Shown here in pieces: positions 3,000 to 58,831 of a stretch of DNA of 64,000 bases. The notes under the pieces are model-generated. The model ran no database searches. It was not told the DNA's origin and worked only from the letters and a program-made list of their open reading frames with translations. The stretch is taken from NCBI GenBank assembly GCA_031317595.1, contig JANCMB010000001.1, forward strand, positions 1,978,971-2,042,970. Direction: 5' to 3'. Origin of the DNA: Glutamicibacter sp. PS. Its GTDB lineage: Bacteria > Actinomycetota > Actinomycetes > Actinomycetales > Micrococcaceae. Both the position numbers and the translations under genes were made by a program. Position 1 is the stretch's first letter. Every line of letters begins with the position of its first letter.

Positions 3000-4367
3000 T
3001 TACTTCTTCGGAGCCGCCGAGGCTTCGAATGCGGCGCGCGGCACGTCAAGGTTGTTCAGCTGCAACGCATCGCGGCTGTAGAACCAGGCAACCATCCAGT
3101 CGCCAAGCACGCGGAACTTGCGTTCGAAGGTCGGCATGGCCATGCCGTGGTAGCCACGGTGTGCCATCCAGGCCGGCCAGCCCTTGAGCTTGATACCAAG
3201 CACCTTAGCGACACCCTTGTTGCGGCCGAAGCCCGCCACGGCGCCGAGGTTCTTGTGCTTGTATTCCTTGACGCTGCCCACGCCGTAGCGTGCTGCGTAA
3301 AGGTTCTTGGCCAGCAACTTGGCCTGGCGCACGGCGTGCTGGGCGTTGGGTACGCAGGTACCGTCCGGCAGACCACCGGTAACGTCCTTGACGGCCGAGA
3401 TATCGCCGGCGGCCCATGCGCCGTCGAGCGCCTCGCCGTTTTCGTCCTTGATGCGCAGGTCGGTACGGGTGTCGATGCGGCCGCGACCCTCGATGATGAA
3501 GTCGGTGGAGCGCACCATCGGGTTGGCCATAACGCCGGCACACCAGATCAGGGTGTCGGTGCCGAATTCGCCGGCTGGGGACTTGTCGGCCATGTTGATC
3601 AGCTGCAGGTTACCGTCGGTGGCGTCGGCCAGCGAGGTGTTCAGCAGCACCTCGATGCCGCGGCTACGCAGGTGCTCAACGACCCACAGGGCCTGCTCTT
3701 CGGTCACCTCGGGCATGATGCGACCCATGGCCTCGACGAGGACGAAGCGCACCTCATCCTTGCTCACGCGATCGTTGAGCTGGACCAGGTGACGGGCCAT
3801 GTCCTCGAGTTCGGCGATGGTTTCGATGCCGGCGAAACCGCCACCCACCACAACGAAGGTCAGGGCGCGCTTGCGAGCTTCGGGATCGGTCATGTTGCTG
3901 GCCGATTCGATGCGCTGGGCGACCTGGTTACGCAGGGCCACGGCTTCTTCGATGGTCTTCAGGCCGATGCCGGTTTCGGCAAGCCCCGGGATGGGGAAGG
4001 TGCGGGTGATAGCACCGGCGCTCATGACGACGTCGGTGTACTCCAGTTCGAACTCTTCGCCATCGACCGGCCGGATCACGGCGGTCTTGTTGGCGTGGTT
4101 CACGCTGGTGACGGTGCCGTTGATCAGCTCCGAGTGCTTCAGGTGCTGGCGGTGCGAAACCACGGCATGGCGCGGTTCAATATTGCCACCGGCCACCTCG
4201 GGCAGGAACGGCTGGTAAGTCATGTAAGGGTTCGGGTCGACGACGGTGACGATACCGCCGTGCGCCTTGACCTTCTTCTGCAGTTTCAGCGCGACGTACA
4301 GGCCAACATAGCCACCGCCGACGACAAGAATGCGCGGACGCTTCTGGGAGCTTTCGATGATCGACAT
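3000..4367 (-). CDS. ndh: Type II NADH dehydrogenase (NDH-2), FAD-dependent
   Basis: Non-proton-pumping NADH:quinone oxidoreductase at the inner face of the membrane, passing electrons from NADH through FAD to menaquinone. At 455 residues it is the right size. RILVVGGGYVGLYVA is the FAD-binding dinucleotide fold, FVVVGGGFAGIE the NADH-binding fold, and the C-terminal region WMAHRGYHGMAMPTFERKFRVL fits the membrane-associating end of actinobacterial NDH-2. The open frame extends 24 codons upstream, but the conserved protein begins at MSIIESSQKRP (4367), with GGGAG very close to the ATG. Monocistronic, ending at a strong hairpin. Confidence 0.9.
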   Translation of the reverse strand: MSIIESSQKRPRILVVGGGYVGLYVALKLQKKVKAHGGIVTVVDPNPYMTYQPFLPEVAGGNIEPRHAVVSHRQHLKHSELINGTVTSVNHANKTAVIRPVDGEEFELEYTDVVMSAGAITRTFPIPGLAETGIGLKTIEEAVALRNQVAQRIESASNMTDPEARKRALTFVVVGGGFAGIETIAELEDMARHLVQLNDRVSKDEVRFVLVEAMGRIMPEVTEEQALWVVEHLRSRGIEVLLNTSLADATDGNLQLINMADKSPAGEFGTDTLIWCAGVMANPMVRSTDFIIEGRGRIDTRTDLRIKDENGEALDGAWAAGDISAVKDVTGGLPDGTCVPNAQHAVRQAKLLAKNLYAARYGVGSVKEYKHKNLGAVAGFGRNKGVAKVLGIKLKGWPAWMAHRGYHGMAMPTFERKFRVLGDWMVAWFYSRDALQLNNLDVPRAAFEASAAPKK

Positions 4368-4447
4368 ACTCCCGATTCTACGCGGAAAATCTGCATTAGT
4401 GAAAACATTCACTAACTCGTTCTGTGCAATCGCCCACACCGGGGCGG

Positions 4448-5968
4448 CTAGTCGCGCTCCTCGGGCAGGTCATCGAAGAAATCGCGGCCGTTGCGGCCGG
4501 GCTCATCCACCGGCAAGGTTCCGATGCTGGCTCCCGAGGCAATGGCCGCCGCGCGCTCCCGACGTGCAGCGGAAGCGATCTGTAGCCCACCAATGACAAG
4601 CACCAGCAGCACCAGCGCACCGCCGCCCATGACGATCGTCGCCTGCAGCCCGGTCATCGCAGGTTCCGGGGCCACCGGCGTGGGGGCCGCGATGGGCTTG
4701 ATCGTGGACTTCTCCACCGAGACGCCCGGGTCGGTGTTCACCGGCGGAGTCTGCTTGCCGCGCCGGTGCACCCGAATCCACTCGGTGATGGTGTCCATCG
4801 GATTCGCCTCGGCCACCGGAACCTGTGCGGTCAAGGCGGCCTGCGCATTGAGAATGCCGTAGCCGTAGAGGTTGTCCTGCCCCGGCTCCCCCACATCCCG
4901 TGCGGTCTGCAAAATCCGGTTGATGACCTGCGGGGCCTTCATCTCCGGGTACTTCGAACGAATCATGGCCACCACCCCGGAAACGATGGGGGCGGCACCC
5001 GAGGTACCCGACCAGCGGGCATAACCGCCCCCGGGCAAGCCACCAACCAGCTGCTCGGCATCGGCGGCGACACCAATGGAAATACCCTCGGTCGAGGAGT
5101 CCTGCGAGGCCTTATCCTGCGCATCCACGCCGGCGACCGTCAGCACACCGGGAATAGTGGCCGGCGCACCGACTTGGCTCATTCCGCCCGAGCGGTTACC
5201 CGCCGCGGCGACAATCACCACATCCTTGTCCTCGGCGTACTTAAATGCGTCGTCCCAGCTCTCGGGCCACGCCGGTGAGGTGGAGCCCAGAGACATGTTG
5301 ATGACCTTCGCCCCGTTATCCACCGCCCAACGCACGGCTTTCGGGATCTGTTCCTCCACCGACACCCCGGCCGGGTTGTTTCCGCCCATCCAGAGCGACA
5401 CCGAGAGCAAGTCAGCTTCCGGAGCGACGCCCAGCATGCCATCGGAGCCCGGCCCGAGCTCCGGAACCTCCTCATACTCGGGTTCCTTCGGTGGCTTGGT
5501 GTCCTCGTCGTCGTCCTCTTCGGCGCTCTTCTTGGCCCGCTCCCAGGCCTTTTTCAAGCGCTCGTTCTCCGAGGTGATGCGCTCGATCTCTGACTTATTG
5601 TTGCCACGTCCGGCCAGCATGGTCGCCACCAGAGTGCCGTGCTCGCTCATCGCACCGATCGGATTCTGTCCCTGAGCGGCCCCGGCGCCGGACATGTCGG
5701 CGCCACCGACCACGGCACCCTTCAGGTCGGGGTGCGTGGTGTCGATACCGGTGTCGATAATCGCGACCTTGACCCCGGCACCCTTACTGATCTTTTGTGC
5801 CTCGGTAATGCCCAGATCCTTCAGCCAGTGCTCGTCGCTACGCACATCGTCGGCCTGTGCCGGAACGGCGGTGCCAAGGCTCAGGCCGGTCGCCAGTAGC
5901 GCGCTACACAGCGCAGCAAGCAGACTGCGGCCGCGGCGCTGAAACGATGCCGGGGTTCTGGAACTCAC
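4448..5968 (-). CDS. Mycosin-like S8 serine protease, membrane-anchored
   Basis: 506-residue subtilase. A signal peptide ends near residue 39 (VPAQA-DD); the triad is D72 (IIDTGID), H110 (SEHGTLVA) and S323 (SGTSGAAP), with oxyanion-hole N258 (AAAGN). A hydrophobic helix at about 442-466 followed by an arginine-rich cytoplasmic tail gives the mycosin (MycP) architecture. Mycosins process or support ESX/type VII secretion, but no EccB-E or WXG100 genes lie nearby. A highly charged, coiled-coil-like insert (about 125-170, with a run EEDDDEDTKPPKEPE) sits just after the His motif. The gene precedes ndh with an 80-bp gap and follows ppx. Confidence 0.85.
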   Translation of the reverse strand: MSSRTPASFQRRGRSLLAALCSALLATGLSLGTAVPAQADDVRSDEHWLKDLGITEAQKISKGAGVKVAIIDTGIDTTHPDLKGAVVGGADMSGAGAAQGQNPIGAMSEHGTLVATMLAGRGNNKSEIERITSENERLKKAWERAKKSAEEDDDEDTKPPKEPEYEEVPELGPGSDGMLGVAPEADLLSVSLWMGGNNPAGVSVEEQIPKAVRWAVDNGAKVINMSLGSTSPAWPESWDDAFKYAEDKDVVIVAAAGNRSGGMSQVGAPATIPGVLTVAGVDAQDKASQDSSTEGISIGVAADAEQLVGGLPGGGYARWSGTSGAAPIVSGVVAMIRSKYPEMKAPQVINRILQTARDVGEPGQDNLYGYGILNAQAALTAQVPVAEANPMDTITEWIRVHRRGKQTPPVNTDPGVSVEKSTIKPIAAPTPVAPEPAMTGLQATIVMGGGALVLLVLVIGGLQIASAARRERAAAIASGASIGTLPVDEPGRNGRDFFDDLPEERD

Positions 5969-6034: not shown

Positions 6035-6979
6035 CTAGTCTCGGGTCAGCAACGCTGCCGAGCTGGCAATCCCGTCGAGAATGTCATGTTCCGAGGCGAT
6101 CAGCTCGCGCGGACCCTGCGGGTTGGCGTCCTCGAGCAACGCGAGGATGCGCTCGACGATCAGCGCACCGGCGCTGATCACATCCACCCGGCCCGGGTGC
6201 ATGTACCCCAGATCGGCACGCTGCTCGCGGGTGGAATCAAGCATCCATCCGGTAGCCCCACGCATCTGCTCGAAAGAAATCCGGGCACCATGGATGCGCT
6301 GGGAATCATAGCGGTCGAGCCCCAGCGCGCAGGCCGTGAGCGTGGTGAAGGTTCCAGCGACCACGAGCACCTGCTGCACGGAGCCCAGATCCAGCACCCC
6401 CTGCAGTTCCGCGAGCATCTGATCGACCATTTGCACGCACTCGACCGAGCGTAGCTGCGCCTCACCGAAGCGTTCGGTGACCCGCACGCACCCCACGTCG
6501 AGGCTCTTGGCCGCCTGCACGCCGGCGGAGGTGCCGATCACGAATTCGGTGGAGCCGCCACCAAGGTCGATCACCAGCGAGGTTCCGCTGCTTTCGGGCA
6601 GCACGCTGGTGGCGCCGGTGAAGGACAGGTTCGCCTCGACCTCGCCGCTAATGACCTCTGGGGCGATCCCCAGTATCTGGGTGATGCCCTCGATGAACTG
6701 CTCGCGGTTGCTGACATCGCGGGCGGCGCTGGTGGCCACGAACCGTAGCTGCTCGACCTCGTGCTCGTCGACCAGTTGCTTGTAATCACGCACCGCGGCA
6801 AAGGTTCGCTTCAGGGCCTCGTCGGAGAAGGCGCCGGTAGCGTCCACACCCTGCCCGAGGCGCACCACGCGCATGGTGCGCAGGCGTTCTTCGAGCCGCA
6901 CGTTGCCGTTGCTCAGATCGGCGTCGGCGATCAGCAGGCGGATCGAGTTGGTGCCGCAGTCAATTCCCGCCACTCGCAT
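6035..6979 (-). CDS. ppx: Exopolyphosphatase / pppGpp phosphatase family (Ppx/GppA)
   Basis: 314 residues of the ASKHA fold; the family releases orthophosphate from polyphosphate or hydrolyses pppGpp. Visible motifs are VAGIDCGTNSIRLLIAD at the N-terminus (phosphate 1), FVATSAARDVSNR, and VIDLGGGSTEFVIG (phosphate 2). The conserved protein begins at MRVAGIDCG; a longer open frame upstream lies inside the DUF501 gene. The ATG overlaps the DUF501 stop by one base (TGATG), suggesting translational coupling. The short Ppx form without the C-terminal HD domain is typical of actinobacteria. Confidence 0.9.
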   Translation of the reverse strand: MRVAGIDCGTNSIRLLIADADLSNGNVRLEERLRTMRVVRLGQGVDATGAFSDEALKRTFAAVRDYKQLVDEHEVEQLRFVATSAARDVSNREQFIEGITQILGIAPEVISGEVEANLSFTGATSVLPESSGTSLVIDLGGGSTEFVIGTSAGVQAAKSLDVGCVRVTERFGEAQLRSVECVQMVDQMLAELQGVLDLGSVQQVLVVAGTFTTLTACALGLDRYDSQRIHGARISFEQMRGATGWMLDSTREQRADLGYMHPGRVDVISAGALIVERILALLEDANPQGPRELIASEHDILDGIASSAALLTRD

Positions 6980-45413: not shown

Positions 45414-45563
45414 ATCTCACCCGTGGTTTGTGGCCCGGACCCAGGCGGGCGGTCCGCGCGGCCATGTGATTCGCTCCCCGGTGGTGGCTCCACCTCACGC
45501 CAGTCACGCTGTCCAGATCATTCTATCGGGAATGCCCGGCCCCGTCCCGATGTTGTAATAGAC

Positions 45564-52018: not shown

Positions 52019-53221
52019 TTAGACGGTGAGCACGGCGCCTTGATCCGCGCGTTCGGCCAGTGCCAGCCCACGTTCGAGGTCGGCCAGCAGATCCTCGGTA
52101 TCCTCGATTCCCACCGACAGGCGCACGAGTTCGCCGGAGATTTCCAGCGGGGTGCCAATCAGGCTGGCGTGGGTCATCTCGCGCGGGTAGCACACGAGCG
52201 ATTCCACCCCGCCAAGCGAAACGGAGAGCTGGAACAGTTCCATCGACTCGGCCAGCGCCCGCGCGGCGGGTTCGCTGTGCAGCCGCAGCGAGACGATTCC
52301 GCCGAAACCGCGCTGCTGGCTGGCGGCCAGCTCGTGGCCCGGGTGGTCGGCCAGTCCCGGGTAATAGACCTCGGCCACCTGCGGTTGTTCGGTGAGCCAG
52401 TGCGCAATGCGGACGGCGGTGGCGCAGTGCCGTTCCATGCGCAACCCCAGGGTTTTCAGCCCGCGGGCGGCCAGATAGTTATCCTGCGGCCCGGAGACCG
52501 CGCCGCCGGCGAATTGCTGGTAGCCCACGGCCTCGGCCAGCGACTGTCCGCGGTGCAGATAGTCGGCGACGATGACCGCACCGCCGAGCACGTCGGAATG
52601 CCCGCCAATGTATTTGGTGGTGGAGTGCACCACCGCGTGCGCCCCAAAGTCCAGCGGGCGCTGCAGGTAGGGGGTGGCGAAGGTGTTATCGACGACGAGC
52701 AGTGCCCCGGCTTCGTGGGCCAACGCGGCCCACCCGGCGATGTCGGCGATGCCCAGCAGCGGGTTGGAGGGGGTTTCCAGCCAGAGCAGGGCGGTGTTTG
52801 GACGCAGCGCGCCGCGCACCTCGTCGAGGTTGGTGATATCCACCGTGCTGGCGCTGATCCCCCACTTGTGGTGCAGCCGGGTGATCAGCCGGTTGGTGCC
52901 GCCGTAGCCGTCGGCGCCGAGCACAATGTGATCGCCCGGGGCGAGCACGGCGCGCAGCAGGGCGTCTTCGGCGGCGATGCCGGAGGCGAAGGAGAAGCCC
53001 GCGGCCCCGCCTTCGAGGGCGGACAGCTGCTCTTCGAAGCCGCCACGGGTGGGGTTCGAGCCGCGCGAGTATTCATGTCCGGCGCGCAGCACGTTGATGC
53101 CGTCTTGGATGAAGGTGCTGGTTTGGTAGATGGGCGGGATGACCGCCCCGGTGTGCGGGTCTTTGCCTTGGCCGGCGTGGACGGCCAGGGTGTTGAATCC
53201 GTGGCGTGCTGAGGTGCTCAT
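52019..53221 (-). CDS. metB: Cystathionine gamma-synthase / gamma-lyase-type enzyme
   Basis: 400 residues of the Cys/Met PLP family. FNTLAVHAGQGKDPHTGAV, YSRGSNPTRGGFEEQLSALEGG, WLETPSNPLLGI, VVDNTFATPYLQRPLDFGA and HSTTKYIGGHSDVLGG (Schiff-base Lys). In actinobacteria this branch acts as cystathionine gamma-synthase or reverse gamma-lyase; sequence alone does not decide. Its ATG overlaps the metY stop by 4 bp, so it is under the same SAM-responsive leader. Confidence 0.88.
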   Translation of the reverse strand: MSTSARHGFNTLAVHAGQGKDPHTGAVIPPIYQTSTFIQDGINVLRAGHEYSRGSNPTRGGFEEQLSALEGGAAGFSFASGIAAEDALLRAVLAPGDHIVLGADGYGGTNRLITRLHHKWGISASTVDITNLDEVRGALRPNTALLWLETPSNPLLGIADIAGWAALAHEAGALLVVDNTFATPYLQRPLDFGAHAVVHSTTKYIGGHSDVLGGAVIVADYLHRGQSLAEAVGYQQFAGGAVSGPQDNYLAARGLKTLGLRMERHCATAVRIAHWLTEQPQVAEVYYPGLADHPGHELAASQQRGFGGIVSLRLHSEPAARALAESMELFQLSVSLGGVESLVCYPREMTHASLIGTPLEISGELVRLSVGIEDTEDLLADLERGLALAERADQGAVLTV

Positions 53222-54543
53222 GCGAAGGCTCCTTCCGGGGCGAGGGTGATCTGTGCGGCGGCGTGATCCAGGGCCTGGAACAGGTCGGCGATGAGGTCGG
53301 CCGGCTCCTCGAGACCGATGGATAGGCGCAGCGTTGCCTTGGATAGTCCGGCGGCCGCCAGTTGTTCGTCGTTGAGTCGGCAGTGGGTCATGGTGGCCGG
53401 GTGGACCACCATCGAGCGCACGTCGCCGATGTTTGCGGCCAGAGTGAAGAGCTGCAAGGCGTCGAGCACCGGGGAGACCAGGGAGGCGTCGGCTAGTTCG
53501 ATGGCCAGCACGCAGCCGGTGCCGCGCGGGGCCACGCGCGCGGCCAGCTCGTGGTCCTGATGTCCCGGCTGGCTCGGGTGGTGCACCCGGCGCACCAGCG
53601 CGTGCCCGGCGGCGGCCTCGGCAAGTTCCAGCACGGTACGCTGTACCCGTTCGGTGCGCACGTTGAGCGTTTCGATGCCGGTGAGAATGCCGGAGGCGGC
53701 GGCCGGCGACAGCGAGGGACCGAGGTCGTGCAGGAACTTGGAGCGCACCAGCATGGCGTAGGCGGCGCTGCCGTAGCGTTCGAGCAGGGAGTACTGCCCG
53801 TAGCGCGGACGCGGCGCGGCGATCTGCGGCCAGCGTGCGGCGTCGGAGAAATCGAAGGTGCCCGCGTCGACGACCAGCCCGCCGAGTACCTGACCGTGTC
53901 CGGCGAGCGCCTTGGTGGCCGAGTGCACGACGATATCGGCCCCGTGCTCGATTGGGCGGTAGTTCGCGGGGGTGGCCAGGGTGTTGTCGACGACCACCGG
54001 AATGTTGTGGCGGTGGGCCAGCTCGGAGAGTCCCTGTAGGTCAAGTAGCGTGCACAGCGGGTTGGAGACCGATTCGACGAAGAAGGCGCGGGTGTCCTCT
54101 TCGATGGCCTCCGCCCAGGCGCCCAGGTCTTCCGGGTCGACGAAGCTCACGCGGATTCCGAAGTCGTTGAAGGAGTCGGTGAACAGGTCCACGGTGCCGC
54201 CGTAGAGCTTATTCGAGGCCACGATGTGCTTCGCGCCCTGGGTCAGCGCCAGCAGCGAGAGGGCGACGGCGGCCTGCCCGGTGGCGGTGGCCACCGCTTG
54301 GGCCCCGCCTTCCAGGGTGGCGACGCGCGCCTCGAGGGCGGCGACCGTGGGATTGCCGGTGCGGGAGTAAGTGAATCCGGGTTCGCGCAACGCAAATTTT
54401 TCGATGGCCTCGGCATGCGAGCCGAATTCGTAGGCCGCGGCGGCGTAGACCGGGACGGTGAGTGGACGGTAGGGGCCCTCGGGCGAGTATCCGGCGTGGA
54501 CTGCTGAGGTGGCCCCGTGCCAGGTGCTGTTCGGCTGTGACAT
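53218..54543 (-). CDS. metY: O-acetylhomoserine sulfhydrylase (MetY)
   Basis: 441 residues; makes homocysteine from O-acetylhomoserine and sulfide. Long form typical of MetY. PVYAAAAYEFGSHAEAIEKFALREPGFTYSRTGNP, SNKLYGGTVDLF, ESVSNPLCTLLDL, VDNTLATPANYRPIEHGAD and HSATKALAGHGQVLGG (PLP Lys). The ATG has AAGGAA 10 bases before it. It is the first gene after the SAM riboswitch and 33-codon leader ORF. Confidence 0.9.
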   Translation of the reverse strand: MSQPNSTWHGATSAVHAGYSPEGPYRPLTVPVYAAAAYEFGSHAEAIEKFALREPGFTYSRTGNPTVAALEARVATLEGGAQAVATATGQAAVALSLLALTQGAKHIVASNKLYGGTVDLFTDSFNDFGIRVSFVDPEDLGAWAEAIEEDTRAFFVESVSNPLCTLLDLQGLSELAHRHNIPVVVDNTLATPANYRPIEHGADIVVHSATKALAGHGQVLGGLVVDAGTFDFSDAARWPQIAAPRPRYGQYSLLERYGSAAYAMLVRSKFLHDLGPSLSPAAASGILTGIETLNVRTERVQRTVLELAEAAAGHALVRRVHHPSQPGHQDHELAARVAPRGTGCVLAIELADASLVSPVLDALQLFTLAANIGDVRSMVVHPATMTHCRLNDEQLAAAGLSKATLRLSIGLEEPADLIADLFQALDHAAAQITLAPEGAFA

Positions 54544-54789: not shown

Positions 54790-54828
54790 GAGGCACAGCG
54801 CAACGTCCAAGGGCGTTGTCGGAACTGC

Positions 54829-54916
54829 TCCATCGTTCCTGGCGGTAGCACCTTTCGGTTTCCCGATGGTTGCTGCGACGTCGACGAGCCAGATCTCTCG
54901 GTCGCTCTTGATGGGG
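54829..54916 (-). ncRNA. SAM-I (S-box) riboswitch upstream of metY-metB
   Basis: On the minus strand the S-box core is visible in order: CCATCAAGAG, CTGGC, GCAGCAACC, AAGGTGCTACC and a closing GATGG that pairs with the opening CCATC (P1). This is the conserved SAM-I layout: kink-turn region, CAACC after P2, AGGTGCTA between P3 and P4. When SAM binds, metY-metB expression should drop. The platform seems translational or uses the GC-rich hairpin rather than a U-run terminator. Identification is from motif reading only. Confidence 0.8.
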
Positions 54917-55150
54917 TGTTGTATTTCCATGGTTCGGCATGGGCGCCCGACGAGGCAAACGGCACCGAACCCCGTGCTTCACACAACGCCAATCCGCGTC
55001 ATATGTCGCAGTGTCGTCACAATGACGGCCCGGTTAACGCCTCTTTATGACATGTTCGATGAGCCCAAATCCACGGAATTCCGGGGTTTAAGCGCCAAAA
55101 GATGTCGCGGCAGGTCGCCCGATGACAGTTCATGACGCGCAGGGAAGACG
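54917..55150 (-). other. Intergenic region upstream of the SAM riboswitch
   Basis: The stretch from the LysR stop to the aptamer must contain the metY promoter. I see no convincing -35/-10 pair, no coding frame with protein-like sequence on either strand, and no terminator for the LysR gene. Several AT-rich spots (CATATGAC, TCATAAAG on the minus strand) are the only promoter candidates. Confidence 0.4.
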
Positions 55151-56092
55151 TCAGCCGAGCAGGCGAACTCCGAAGCTCGCGACCACCGAACGCACCTCGT
55201 CGAGGTAGCGCTGGGCCTGATCGGTGAGCGGGACCGCGGCGTGGTCGATCCAGCCGATCTCAATGCGTTCGTCCACATCCAGCGGGATGGCCACGATCGA
55301 GGGGTCGAGTTCGTCGCTGATGATGCCCGTCGAGATCGTGTATCCGCCGAGTCCGATCATCAGGTTGAAGATGGTTGCACGATCGGAGACCCGGATTTCG
55401 CGTTTGCTCGAGAGCGTGGAGAGGATTTCCTCAGCGAAGTAGAAGGAGTTGCTCGCCCCTTGGTCGAAGGTGAGCCGCGGTAGCTCCTCGAGATCTTCGA
55501 GGGTCGCCCGCTCCCGCGAGGCCAGCGGGTTGCTACGCGAGATGAAGATGTGCGGGTCGGCGAGGAATAGCGGGTGGAACACCAGCCGGGACTCGCGCAG
55601 CAGTTTGTCGATGACCTTCCGGTTGAAGTCGTTGCGGTAGAGAATGCCGATTTCACTGCGTAGTGTGCGGACATCTTCGATGATGTCCTCGGTGCGCGTT
55701 TCGCGCAGCGAGAACTCGTACTGCTCGGCCCCACTGGCCTGGACCATCTTCACGAAAGCATCGACGGCGAAGGAATAGTGCTGGGTGGAGATCCCGAGTA
55801 GGCGGGGGGCCGGCGGCCGGTCGAGATAGCGCTGTTCGAGCAGTTCGACCTGTTCGAGCACCTGCCGGGCGTAGCCGAGGAATTCACCGCCCTCGACGGT
55901 CAGTGCCACGCCCCGCGCGGAGCGGACCAGAAGCCTGCGCCCAACCCGGGTTTCGAGTTCCTTCATCGCCGCGGACATCGTTGGCTGTGCGACGTAGAGC
56001 AGGTCGGCGGCCGCGGAGATCGACCCCTCGGAGGCAACCGTGAGGAAATAGCGCAGCTGCTGCAGCGTGAGACCGTTCACTCCTTGAGCCAT
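55151..56092 (-). CDS. LysR-family transcriptional regulator
   Basis: 313 residues. Winged HTH in LTLQQLRYFLTVASEGSISAAADLLYVAQPTMSAAMKELETRVGRRLLVRSARGVALTVEGGEFL, then a periplasmic-binding-like effector domain (FDQGASNSFYFAEEI, GLGGYTISTGIISDELDPSIVAIPLD). Divergent from the mesX operon with 123 bp between, the classic LysR arrangement, so the mes operon is its likely target. Effector could be a methionine-pathway metabolite such as homocysteine, by analogy with MetR; this is inference. Confidence 0.9.
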   Translation of the reverse strand: MAQGVNGLTLQQLRYFLTVASEGSISAAADLLYVAQPTMSAAMKELETRVGRRLLVRSARGVALTVEGGEFLGYARQVLEQVELLEQRYLDRPPAPRLLGISTQHYSFAVDAFVKMVQASGAEQYEFSLRETRTEDIIEDVRTLRSEIGILYRNDFNRKVIDKLLRESRLVFHPLFLADPHIFISRSNPLASRERATLEDLEELPRLTFDQGASNSFYFAEEILSTLSSKREIRVSDRATIFNLMIGLGGYTISTGIISDELDPSIVAIPLDVDERIEIGWIDHAAVPLTDQAQRYLDEVRSVVASFGVRLLG

Positions 56093-56100
56093 AGATTTAG

Positions 56101-56118
56101 TCTATACGAATCCATAGT
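56101..56118. promoter_or_regulatory. Candidate LysR operator
   Basis: TCTATACGAATCCATAGT contains an inverted repeat CTAT-N8-ATAG of LysR T-N11-A type, 8 bp upstream of the lysR start and about 100 bp before mesX. It fits an autoregulatory site. A second hairpin-like repeat, GGCCT-N6-AGGCC, lies at 56178-56193, close to the mesX start. Confidence 0.4.
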
Positions 56119-56215: not shown

Positions 56216-57208
56216 ATGGCACACGCGTTTACCTTTAGCATCAGCACCACTGACTTCGACGAGCACTACACCCCGTCGGCGAGCTCGCGCATTACGACGA
56301 ACTTCGCCAACCTGGCCCGCGGCGAGAACCGCCAAGAGAACCTGCGCAACGCGTTGACGATGATCAACCGCCGCTTCAACGCGCTGGCACACTGGGACAA
56401 CCCGGACGGGGACCGCTACGCCCTCGAACTGAAGATCATCTCGGCCAATGTGCACTTCACCTCCAACGACGGGCCGCAGCAGTTCCCGCTGCTCGAGGTG
56501 CTCGATACCTGGATTCTCGATAAGCAGACCGGCACCCGGAGCCACGGCATCGTCGGAAATAACTTCTCCTCCTACGTACGTGACTATGACTTCAGTGTGG
56601 TCCTGCCCGCCGCGGTCGACGAGTCGGGCACTCCGGCGCTCCCGCAAGATTTCGGTGACCTGCACGGTCAGCTCTTCCAGCACTTCCTCGACTCCGAGGC
56701 CTACCAGGAGCGCTTCGCGCAGCTACCGGTGATTTGCATCAGCGTCTCCACCTCCAAGACCTACCGTCGCACGGGCAATAGCCATCCGGTATTGGGTCTT
56801 GAGTACCAGCAGGAGGACTACTCGCTCACCGACGCGTACTTCGCGAAGATGGGTCTGCGCGTGCGCTACTTCATGCCGACCGGCAGCGTCGCACCACTGG
56901 CCTTCTACTTCCGTGGCGACCTGCTGGGCGACTACACCAACCTGCAGCTGATCAGCACCATCAGCACCATGGAGACGTTCCAGAAGATCTACCGCCCCGA
57001 GATCTACAATGCGAACTCGGCCGCACCGGCGGTTTACCGCCCCAGCCTGAGCGCACATGATTTCTCGCGAACCCTGATCTCCTACGATCGCGAGGAGCGC
57101 ACCCGTCTCGGAGCGACGCAGGGCCGATACACCGAGGAGCACTTCATCACCCCGAACCGCGAACTACTCGAGCAGTGGGCCGCCACCTACCCGACTCCCG
57201 TCGCCTAA
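56216..57208 (+). CDS. mesX: DUF1852 protein, putative MesX
   Basis: 330 residues from ATG 56216 (a TTG three codons earlier is possible; neither has a good ribosome site). FTFSISTTDFDEHYTPSASSRITTNFANLARGENRQENLRNAL is the DUF1852 start, and the body has YALELKIISANVHFTS and VICISVSTSKTYRRTGNSHP. DUF1852 proteins are partners of the MesD methionine synthases and are needed for that oxygen-dependent, folate-independent reaction; what MesX does chemically is not known to me. It is immediately followed by the MetE-like gene (17-bp gap). Confidence 0.82.
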   Translation: MAHAFTFSISTTDFDEHYTPSASSRITTNFANLARGENRQENLRNALTMINRRFNALAHWDNPDGDRYALELKIISANVHFTSNDGPQQFPLLEVLDTWILDKQTGTRSHGIVGNNFSSYVRDYDFSVVLPAAVDESGTPALPQDFGDLHGQLFQHFLDSEAYQERFAQLPVICISVSTSKTYRRTGNSHPVLGLEYQQEDYSLTDAYFAKMGLRVRYFMPTGSVAPLAFYFRGDLLGDYTNLQLISTISTMETFQKIYRPEIYNANSAAPAVYRPSLSAHDFSRTLISYDREERTRLGATQGRYTEEHFITPNRELLEQWAATYPTPVA

Positions 57209-57225
57209 AGACCCAAGGACGCACC

Positions 57226-58266
57226 ATGACGAATAAGTTACTTCCGACCTCGATCGTCGGCAGCCTGCCCAAGCCCTCCTGGTTGGCTCAGCCCGAGACG
57301 CTCTGGTCCCCATGGAAACTCGAGGGTAGCGAACTGCGCGAAGGCAAGTACGATGCCATGCGCGCGGCCGTGCTGGAGCAGACCCACCGCGGCATCGACA
57401 TCATCAGCGACGGCGAGCAAAGCCGCCAGCACTTCGTCACGACCTTCATCGAGCACCTCTCCGGGGTTGATTTCGACAAGCGCGAGACCGTGCGCATCCG
57501 CGACCGCTATGACGCGAGCGTGCCCAGCGTCGTCGGCGCCGTCGAGCGCGAGAAGCCGGTGTTCGTCCAGGACGCGGCCTTCCTGCGGTCCTGTACCGAC
57601 CGCCAGATCAAGTGGACCCTTCCCGGCCCGATGACGATGGTCGACACACTCTACGACGCGCACTACCGCAGCCGCGAGAAATTGGCGTGGGAATTCGCAA
57701 CGATCCTGAATCAGGAGGCGAAGGAGCTCGAGGCAGCCGGCGTCGACATCATCCAGTTCGACGAGCCAGCGTTCAATGTATTCTTCGACGAGGTCGCCGA
57801 CTGGGGCGTCGCGGCGCTGGAACGTGCCTGCCAGGGACTGAAGGCCGAGACCGTGGTGCACATCTGCTTCGGTTACGGCATTAAGGCAAATAACGATTGG
57901 AAGGCGACCCTCGGCACCCAGTGGCGCCACTACGAGAAGTCCTTCCCGCTGCTGCAGCGCTCCTCAATCGACACCGTTTCCTTGGAGTCGCATCACTCGA
58001 ACGTTCCGCTCGAGGTTGTCGAGCTCGTGCGCGGCAAGAAGGTCATGCTCGGCGCGATCGACGTGGCCAACGCGGAGATCGAAACCCCGGACGAGGTCGC
58101 CGGCACGCTGCGGGCGGCGCTTGAGTACGTCGACGCGGACAAGCTGATCCCAAGCACCAATTGCGGTATGGCACCGTTCCCCCGGGATGTTGCGCTGGCC
58201 AAGCTGAGCGCACTGAGCGCGGGCGCCTCCATCCTCCGCGAGGAGCTTGTCGGTGCCCACGTCTGA
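57226..58266 (+). CDS. mesD: Short MetE-like methionine synthase, putative MesD
   Basis: 346 residues, matching only the C-terminal catalytic barrel of MetE (full MetE is about 760). Zinc and homocysteine ligands are intact: H212 and C214 (VVHICFGYG), E254 (SLESHHSN), C313 (STNCGMAPFP). LPTSIVGSLPKP at the start and GIDIISDGEQSRQHF, QFDEPAFNVF are core-MetE motifs. The N-terminal MetE half that helps bind methyl-THF-triglutamate is absent, so folate is unlikely to be the methyl donor. AAGGA before ATG. Linked to MesX and a flavin reductase-type protein. Confidence 0.85.
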   Translation: MTNKLLPTSIVGSLPKPSWLAQPETLWSPWKLEGSELREGKYDAMRAAVLEQTHRGIDIISDGEQSRQHFVTTFIEHLSGVDFDKRETVRIRDRYDASVPSVVGAVEREKPVFVQDAAFLRSCTDRQIKWTLPGPMTMVDTLYDAHYRSREKLAWEFATILNQEAKELEAAGVDIIQFDEPAFNVFFDEVADWGVAALERACQGLKAETVVHICFGYGIKANNDWKATLGTQWRHYEKSFPLLQRSSIDTVSLESHHSNVPLEVVELVRGKKVMLGAIDVANAEIETPDEVAGTLRAALEYVDADKLIPSTNCGMAPFPRDVALAKLSALSAGASILREELVGAHV

Positions 58267-58831
58267 AATTACGACCACCGAGGCACCGACCGGTGACGCT
58301 ATGCACGCTTCGGCGTCCTCCCTGGCCGCCGAGGACTTCAAGGCCGTCTTTCGCGGACACCCCAGCGGCGTCACGGTCATCACGGCCGATGCCGGCGACG
58401 GGCCGGTGGCCCTAACCGCCTCATCGGTCGCCTCGGTGAGCGCCGAGCCTCCACTGCTCGTATTCTCGATCTCGTCGCTCTCCTCGACCGCCGAAGCCCT
58501 TTTGCGGGCCGAGAGCGTTGTGGTGCATTTCCTCGACGGCAACGACGTGGAGGTAGCGAAGCTGGGTGCCACCAGCGGCATCGACCGCTTCGCGCAGGCC
58601 CAGACCTGGACGCGTCTGGAGACCGGCGAACCGGTGTTTGACGGGGTTCGCGCCTGGGTGCGCTGCGTGATCGTCGATCGGATGCAGGCCGGAACCTCGA
58701 CGATTGTGGTCGCCCGTGCCGTGGAATCGCAGATTGCGCGCGACGCCCAGCCGGGCGGGTCCGGAGATGCACTGGTTTACCACAACCGCACCTGGCACCG
58801 CCTGGGCGATCACTCCCGGCTGGAGGGCTGA
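58253..58831 (+). CDS. Flavin reductase-domain protein of the mes operon
   Basis: 192 residues from GTG 58253, which has GAGGAG before it and overlaps mesD by 14 bp. Split-barrel flavin reductase-like domain: FKAVFRGHPSGVTVITA, ALTASSVASVSAEPPLLVFSISSLSSTAEALL, VVVHFLDGNDVEVAKLGA and RFAQAQTWTRL, the pattern of FMN/FAD reductases (HpaC/RutF-like). A reduced-flavin supply would fit the oxygen dependence reported for MesX/MesD; alternatively it is the methyl-donor-generating enzyme. Overlap with mesD supports functional linkage. Confidence 0.85.
   Translation: MPTSEITTTEAPTGDAMHASASSLAAEDFKAVFRGHPSGVTVITADAGDGPVALTASSVASVSAEPPLLVFSISSLSSTAEALLRAESVVVHFLDGNDVEVAKLGATSGIDRFAQAQTWTRLETGEPVFDGVRAWVRCVIVDRMQAGTSTIVVARAVESQIARDAQPGGSGDALVYHNRTWHRLGDHSRLEG

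Follow-up and report, generated by a model that had tools for sequence, protein, structure and literature searches.

How can a bacterium make methionine independently of methyl-folate, and why should a flavin reductase gene lie beside the genes that do so? The question is raised by three consecutive genes, mesX, mesD and a flavin reductase-domain gene, in a 64,000-nucleotide stretch of DNA from Glutamicibacter sp. PS, called the window below (NCBI GenBank assembly GCA_031317595.1, contig JANCMB010000001.1, positions 1,978,971 to 2,042,970). According to Price et al. 2021 (PMC7857596), MesD requires MesX and oxygen and not methyl-folate, mesXD alone (the Sphingomonas koreensis proteins) complement Escherichia coli with oxygen required, and MesX and MesD often lie near a putative flavin reductase; a flavin-using MesX is predicted there. 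The central idea of a first-pass annotation of the window, that the neighboring reductase suggests a flavin- and oxygen-dependent step that generates the methyl group, was therefore already in print. In the open literature searched, preprints excluded, we found no paper that settles the source of the methyl group and no account of independent recruitment of reductases to mesXD. The present comparisons indicate that the reductase is not a fixed partner of mesXD and that free-flavin reductases have been recruited to these genes repeatedly and independently, and lost; both points are new here, as are the lack of a PDB (Protein Data Bank) counterpart for the MesX model and the conserved operator ahead of actinobacterial mesX. 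Most simply, the pathway would draw on free reduced flavin, and reductases that the host already has can supply it.

The names given to the three genes by the first-pass annotation are confirmed by profile and structure comparisons (Table 1). A DUF1852 gene does precede mesD, with a spacing of 17 bases, and the MesX protein matches PF08908 over its full length (residues 1-323 of 323; the cut-off is 25 bits). The second gene had been described as the catalytic half of MetE with all of its zinc ligands, and as a MesD rather than a plain MetE fragment, and this holds: NF006589 (cut-off 392 bits) is the sole NCBIfam model that it matches above cut-off, and the nine other matching models all fall below theirs (the next, PRK04326, reaches 226.9 bits against 406), with no model named MesA, MesB or MesC among those compared. 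Its top match in the Protein Data Bank (PDB) is 3RPD, which Price et al. (PMC7857596) call a MesD, and it is 75.6% identical to the MesD of Acinetobacter baumannii (locus L036; 593 phmmer bits). The zinc ligands H212, C214, E254 and C313 and the homocysteine-side residues S13, E64 and D179 are kept, all of them as placed by motif; the least certain of these assignments is E254, the putative equivalent of E665 in E. coli. Of the three gene products, MesD alone also passes the cut-off of a curated equivalog model. The third gene carries the expected flavin reductase domain and overlaps mesD as stated; its start is TTG at 58247 or GTG at 58253 with GGAG ahead, GTG being the more likely, and the overlap is therefore 14-20 bases. 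Its structure model matches FerA, DszD, HpaC and BorF structures at E values of about 1e-12 to 1e-10, and its subfamily is left unnamed by the profiles, the best scores being 66-67 bits against equivalog cut-offs of 230-260 (RutF, HsaB, FerA) and 63.3 bits against a cut-off of 200 for HpaC_Thermus.

Is the reductase then conserved beside mesXD? We surveyed the 80 best-scoring loci among 592 that match the MesX family of the window, a set skewed to Actinobacteria (42 loci). In all 80 mesD adjoins mesX. A reductase lies beside mesXD in 45 of them, as a PF01613 gene 3' of mesD in 29 and as an MsuE-type FMN reductase gene 5' of mesX in 16, the two types never occurring together; in one more locus a reductase lies beyond the LysR gene, and neither type is present in the remaining 34. 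Among 398 Pseudomonadota genomes drawn evenly, MesX occurs in 44, of which 7 have a reductase beside mesXD (3 PF01613 and 4 MsuE) and 37 do not; without the deliberately chosen center genome G476, which has a reductase, the count is 6 of 43. The conservation on which the first-pass annotation staked its reading thus fails in this phylum, and an intact copy beside mesXD is also missing from 5 of 17 MesX genomes in the genus to which the window belongs. The corresponding draw of 396 Actinomycetota genomes does favor it: MesX was found in three (the window's own included), and all three have the reductase. A 142-row tree of MesX requires at least 17 switches between presence and absence of the reductase, and at least 11 of them are imposed by branches with strong support. 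Apart from metY-metB in the window's genus, no recurrent co-directional neighbor in the loci that lack a reductase resembles one of a third kind (the protein clusters were judged by eye).

Several individual loci deserve mention. In the Pseudomonadota sample mesD adjoins mesX in 43 of 44 loci, and the remaining one (L229, genome G568) has the order mesX-msuE-mesD; at another place the same genome holds fragments of a second, disrupted MesX (G568:C1:2175963-2176446). In Rhodococcus (L032) the reading frame that follows mesD matched no protein family. In nine Pseudomonadota loci (L193, L194, L201, L204-L206, L211, L218 and L219) a membrane protein gene lies near mesXD on the opposite strand, and we take its product to resemble a TauE/SafE-type permease. 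Locus L087, on a contig titled Bacillus subtilis SK6B4, has a mesXD-reductase set nearly identical to that of Pseudochrobactrum L092 (near-zero branch length) and is probably contamination of that assembly; it was counted as found among the 80.

Within the relatives of the window the turnover can be followed more closely. Among 58 relatives MesX is present in 21, and mesD has an intact reductase as neighbor in 12 of those; for the genus of the window the corresponding number is 12 of 17 MesX genomes. Three of the five genus genomes that lack it retain remnants (one that spans the gene and has four stops, one short stretch interrupted by a stop, and one pair of short pieces that lie in different frames), and on the genus tree the pattern needs three changes, two of which are forced by strong branches. 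In genomes without an intact reductase mesXD are still constrained, with pairwise ratios of nonsynonymous to synonymous substitution (dN/dS) of at most 0.19 for MesX and 0.087 for MesD. The genus values for MesX are 0.17-0.19 in four pairs without intact reductase versus 0.03-0.07 in five intact pairs, with 0.066 in a mixed pair, and across all loci the MesX medians are 0.126 (20 pairs without reductase) versus 0.085 (23 pairs with; p = 0.019); the MesD medians, 0.058 versus 0.056, show no difference (p = 0.32). The higher MesX values could reflect weaker constraint following reductase loss, but we give this contrast no weight because the pairs are unbalanced by phylum and dS varies.

These observations bear directly on the notion that the reductase is a dedicated and obligatory third subunit. 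The overlapping reading frames in the window, the single clade formed by the actinobacterial linked reductases and the unbroken presence of the gene in the Actinomycetota draw are what such a subunit would lead one to expect, yet, in the stretch examined, neither reductase type is found in 37 of 44 Pseudomonadota loci or in 34 of the 80 best-matching ones. Two genus genomes that have only reductase remnants (G398 and G402) keep MesX (dN/dS 0.19) and MesD (0.044) under selection, although no full-length MetE, MetH, MetF or PF02574 gene was found in either, and mesXD alone complement E. coli (PMC7857596). An obligatory subunit is in our judgment the least probable of all the explanations considered here.

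The gene content of the genus also points to a replacement of the folate route. MesX is present in 17 of 18 genomes, MetF (PF02219) in one, MetH (PF02965) in none and full-length MetE in one, where PF01717 lies in a frame of 786 residues; the criterion for MetE was a PF01717 match within a long open frame, PF08267 being left unsearched. The sole genome without MesX, G403, carries this MetE with MetF beside it (L140, G403:C1:590000-606000) and has either kept the folate route or gone back to it. The window's own genome gave no PF02219 match, in a search that left aside the flavin-independent MetF type of mycobacteria, which is not caught by PF02219 (PMC7857596). Gene content would thus make the pathway independent of methyl-folate, as the first-pass annotation proposed. 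The own genome also has one PF02574 gene that stands alone and may encode a salvage methyltransferase; of 15 genus genomes inspected, 9 have such a gene (own included). Second PF01717 matches are weak in G397 and G401 (31.7 and 33.1 bits) and mesD-like in G399, G407 and G409. The latter are second mesD copies that lie some kilobases beyond the intact operon on its downstream side, where L124 (+4355..5577 from mesX), L125 (+4362..5480) and L123 (+6384..6951) hold a seemingly decaying mesD and a fragment of a second reductase. Among 38 other MesX genomes some MetF match occurs in 32: all 26 non-actinobacterial ones have a match of at least 276 bits, and of the 12 actinobacterial ones three have at least 218 bits, three have weak partial matches (below 50 bits) and six have none. 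Price et al. likewise report many genomes with MesD alone and without MetF, Paenarthrobacter aurescens for example (PMC7857596).

Where did the linked reductases come from? The linked PF01613 proteins form five groups on the tree (Actinobacteria; Acinetobacter; Rhizobiales; Sphingomonas with Brevundimonas; Pseudomonas with Achromobacter), with unlinked relatives falling between the groups; those of Actinobacteria are one clade. On a more careful tree the linked label changes five times, and strong branches force at least four changes. Constraining the 39 linked rows to a single clade lowers the log likelihood by 364 and is rejected (p-AU 9.2e-5); in this test five long-branch unlinked rows were excluded, and the linked label was fixed beforehand, a quick tree having already been seen. 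The nearest NCBIfam models of the linked proteins tested are RutF, HsaB, FerA and MsuE: the Acinetobacter and Rhizobium proteins are RutF-like, those of Pseudomonas and Brevundimonas are HsaB-like, and the two MsuE-type proteins tested (L034 and L229) score above the TIGR03566 cut-off and match PF03358, a Pfam family other than PF01613. RutF, HsaB and MsuE supply reduced flavin to two-component flavin monooxygenases. Across 149 loci (at least two of them repeats, L187/L099 and L198/L107; L128, L130 and L133 were left out as repeats) reductases lie beside mesXD 46 + 21 = 67 times versus 3 times elsewhere in 1,365 kb of flanking DNA, and of these three the L053 protein belongs to the actinobacterial linked clade and that of L124 is the decaying second copy.

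Could the reductase nevertheless be a chance or selfish neighbor with no role in methionine synthesis? Its absence from most Pseudomonadota loci, its decay in the genus and the function of mesXD in E. coli without a linked reductase (PMC7857596) all fit that idea. It sits poorly with the repeated recruitment of two unrelated reductase families to positions right beside mesXD, and with A. baumannii, where a 2026 paper (PMC12892962) reports that B12 lowers both the DUF1852 gene (log2 -8.3) and the flavin reductase gene ABUW_3196 (log2 -2.5). We consider a mere neighbor distinctly unlikely.

The account towards which we lean, taken as a whole and with modest confidence, is as follows: the cassette would be an operon for de novo methionine synthesis in a Glutamicibacter-like actinobacterium, in which MesX would act on a common metabolite and, with the help of molecular oxygen and free reduced flavin, form or liberate from it an activated methyl group, and MesD would transfer this methyl to zinc-bound homocysteine. 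The flavin reductase would be an exchangeable supplier that delivers reduced flavin by diffusion, and its gene would be lost where the cell's other reductases suffice. An exchangeable reductase would be expected to be recruited several times from different families, and the repeated recruitment of different reductases thus supports free reduced flavin as a co-substrate that any reductase can supply. Of the first-pass annotation, the gene families, the independence from folate and the flavin- and oxygen-dependent step find support, with the link to flavin resting on the repeated recruitment; a stronger reading, in which the gene overlap marks a fixed partner, does not. We infer the use of reduced flavin by MesX itself, the source of the methyl group and the role of LysR.

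Several points weigh against this account. The AlphaFold2 model of MesX is confident (pTM 0.90, built from 54 sequences), and yet a Foldseek search of 350,542 PDB chains gave zero matches at E <= 0.001, so MesX shows no likeness to a known flavin oxygenase. The search itself works, since the less well modeled control, the window's reductase (mean predicted local distance difference test score, pLDDT, of 80.0), found 100 PDB matches at E 0.001. Viral protein models gave no match to MesX at E 0.001 either, and a remote sequence match, to 2GRK, has an E value of 0.045; MesX thus appears, as modeled, to be a protein with no recognizable known fold. Furthermore, 37 of the 44 Pseudomonadota loci have no adjoining reductase, the recruitment count rests on a tree of a short protein (164 columns) from which five long-branch rows were dropped, the unlinked reductases were chosen by similarity to two queries, and the free reduced flavin may act on a metal site of MesX instead.

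If it serves a metal, MesX could be an oxygenase of the non-haem iron or another metal type, with the reductases keeping the metal reduced and flavin acting as an electron shuttle and not as the oxygen-activating cofactor. Flavin reductases are able to reduce ferric iron, any reductase would serve in such a scheme, and the best NCBIfam model of the window's reductase by E value is FerA, although below its cut-off (66.7 versus 260 bits). MesX has the residues that a 2-His-1-carboxylate site needs, H150 and H190 being invariant in 142 of 142 sequences together with the acids E94, D102, D123, D125, E196, E262, D291 and E294. Against a metal center, the PDB search found no metal protein of similar fold, and we think it possible but unlikely that MesX works in this way.

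Another conserved residue, C174, is the sole cysteine of the window's MesX and is present in 141 of the 142 sequences, which would suit a protein whose conserved side chain holds the methyl by a covalent bond (an option raised by Price et al.). The exception, L040 of Arthrobacter sp. S41, has alanine at this position, and its presumed genome (G405) lacks MetF, MetH and full-length MetE, though it has a PF02574 gene; this natural variant weakens the case for C174 as carrier and says nothing against H150 or H190. A covalent carrier seems quite improbable to us. The stretch RxTTNFANLAR near residues 25-35 is among the most conserved of MesX, and it spans the least certain block of the model (mean pLDDT 60 for residues 21-30 and 83 for 31-40), a placement that would resemble a loop that becomes ordered on binding.

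A more speculative chemistry follows from treating flavin itself as the carrier. The idea is taken from general chemistry: MesX might found a new structural class of oxygenase, with reduced flavin as methyl carrier in the place of folate. A one-carbon unit would be bound at N5 of reduced flavin, oxygen would convert the N5-methyl flavin to an N5-methyl flavinium, a strong methyl donor, MesD would methylate its zinc-bound homocysteine from it, and the released oxidized flavin would go back to a flavin reductase. Such a scheme would account for the oxygen requirement, for the dispensability of folate and B12, and for why any reductase can serve, but we rate it a very long shot.

Returning to the exchangeable-supplier account, its last element is a LysR protein that would act at an operator ahead of mesX. 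Of the 42 actinobacterial loci in the survey set, 39 have a divergent LysR gene, which tracks mesX more faithfully than the reductase does. CTAT-N8-ATAG lies upstream of mesX in 38 of these 42 loci, versus one site in their other 517,534 bases, and CATAG keeps a constant distance from it in 52 of 52 such sites, drawn from 61 loci, its CAT being the LysR start codon reversed; the window has no other CATAG/CTAT/ATAG site than that in Table 1. Such conservation points to a LysR-type operator ahead of actinobacterial mesX, with LysR as its probable ligand. The MsuE-type loci have a different palindrome, TGAANTAA-N7-TTA[CT]NTCA, in 16 of 19 (counted within those loci only). A wider regulon for the LysR operator finds no support, the own genome having 6 sites versus 11 for a reversed control pattern. 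A 2014 regulon paper (PMC4239095) places PF08908-metE2 under MetR in Proteobacteria; the MetR site ATGAA-N5-TTCAT is absent within 220 bases of mesX from the window and the actinobacterial loci and has four matches in the other loci, and, for the LysR gene, no MetR protein model is among the 25 listed of 54 NCBIfam matches. The surroundings are as the first-pass annotation had them, with metY-metB on the minus strand behind an S-adenosylmethionine (SAM) riboswitch well above its gathering threshold and with the LysR gene between these and mesX. Elsewhere in the window a ZMP/ZTP riboswitch was found at 45432-45517 on the minus strand (RF01750, 45.9 bits).

Table 1. Features of the methionine locus, with positions in the window
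Feature	Position	Strand	Evidence
metB-type cystathionine gamma-synthase	52019..53221	-	NF005871 561.3 bits, cut-off 513
metY-type O-acetylhomoserine sulfhydrylase, family level	53218..54543	-	TIGR01326 443.4 bits, below cut-off 495.1; PF01053 370.8 bits
SAM riboswitch upstream of metY-metB	54827..54917	-	RF00162 59.3 bits, gathering 44.4
LysR-type regulator, divergent from mesX	55151..56092	-	PF00126 and PF03466
Predicted LysR operator CATAG-N7-CTAT-N8-ATAG, between LysR and mesX	56090..56117	.	Conserved site pattern
mesX (DUF1852, PF08908), predicted oxygenase-type partner	56216..57208	+	561.6 bits; AlphaFold2 pLDDT 91.6
mesD, core methionine synthase	57226..58266	+	NF006589 627.2 bits; 3RPD 563 bits; zinc/homocysteine residues
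Flavin reductase (PF01613), overlaps mesD 3' end	58253..58831	+	PF01613 114.7 bits; structure-model matches

How does this locus compare with known systems? The MesD/MesX pairs of S. koreensis and Acinetobacter baylyi (PMC7857596) share with it the protein families, the adjacent genes, the residues, a nearby flavin reductase and no need for MetF. The window differs from them in being an actinobacterial operon with a mesD-reductase overlap, a divergent LysR gene with its own operator and a place beside riboswitch-controlled metY-metB, and the linked reductases of Acinetobacter and of Sphingomonas/Brevundimonas belong to clades other than that of the window. Two-component flavin monooxygenases (HpaB/HpaC, HsaA/HsaB, RutA/RutF and MsuD/MsuE) likewise pair the gene of an oxygen-dependent protein with that of a free-flavin reductase, and the reductases are of the same families, but MesX is no member of that group by any test made here and has no PDB match at E 0.001. 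MesD is the counterpart of the C-terminal catalytic half of MetE (PF01717) and, at 346 residues, is too short to include the folate-binding N-terminal half.

The making of methyl groups by MesX and MesD without folate or B12 is a question of central metabolism, and the repeated capture of reductases narrows the part of it that concerns MesX: reduced flavin and oxygen should drive MesX, whichever reductase supplies the flavin. A confidently modeled protein with no PDB match is a worthwhile target for structure determination, and if flavin were indeed the methyl carrier MesX would be a new structural class of oxygenase. The genus holds natural strains with and without the reductase, plus one genome with MetE and MetF instead. 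Finally, another paper (PMC13059711) reports that strains with MesD withstand nitrous oxide; MesD seems to spare bacteria the poisoning of MetH by this gas, which gives the pathway ecological weight.

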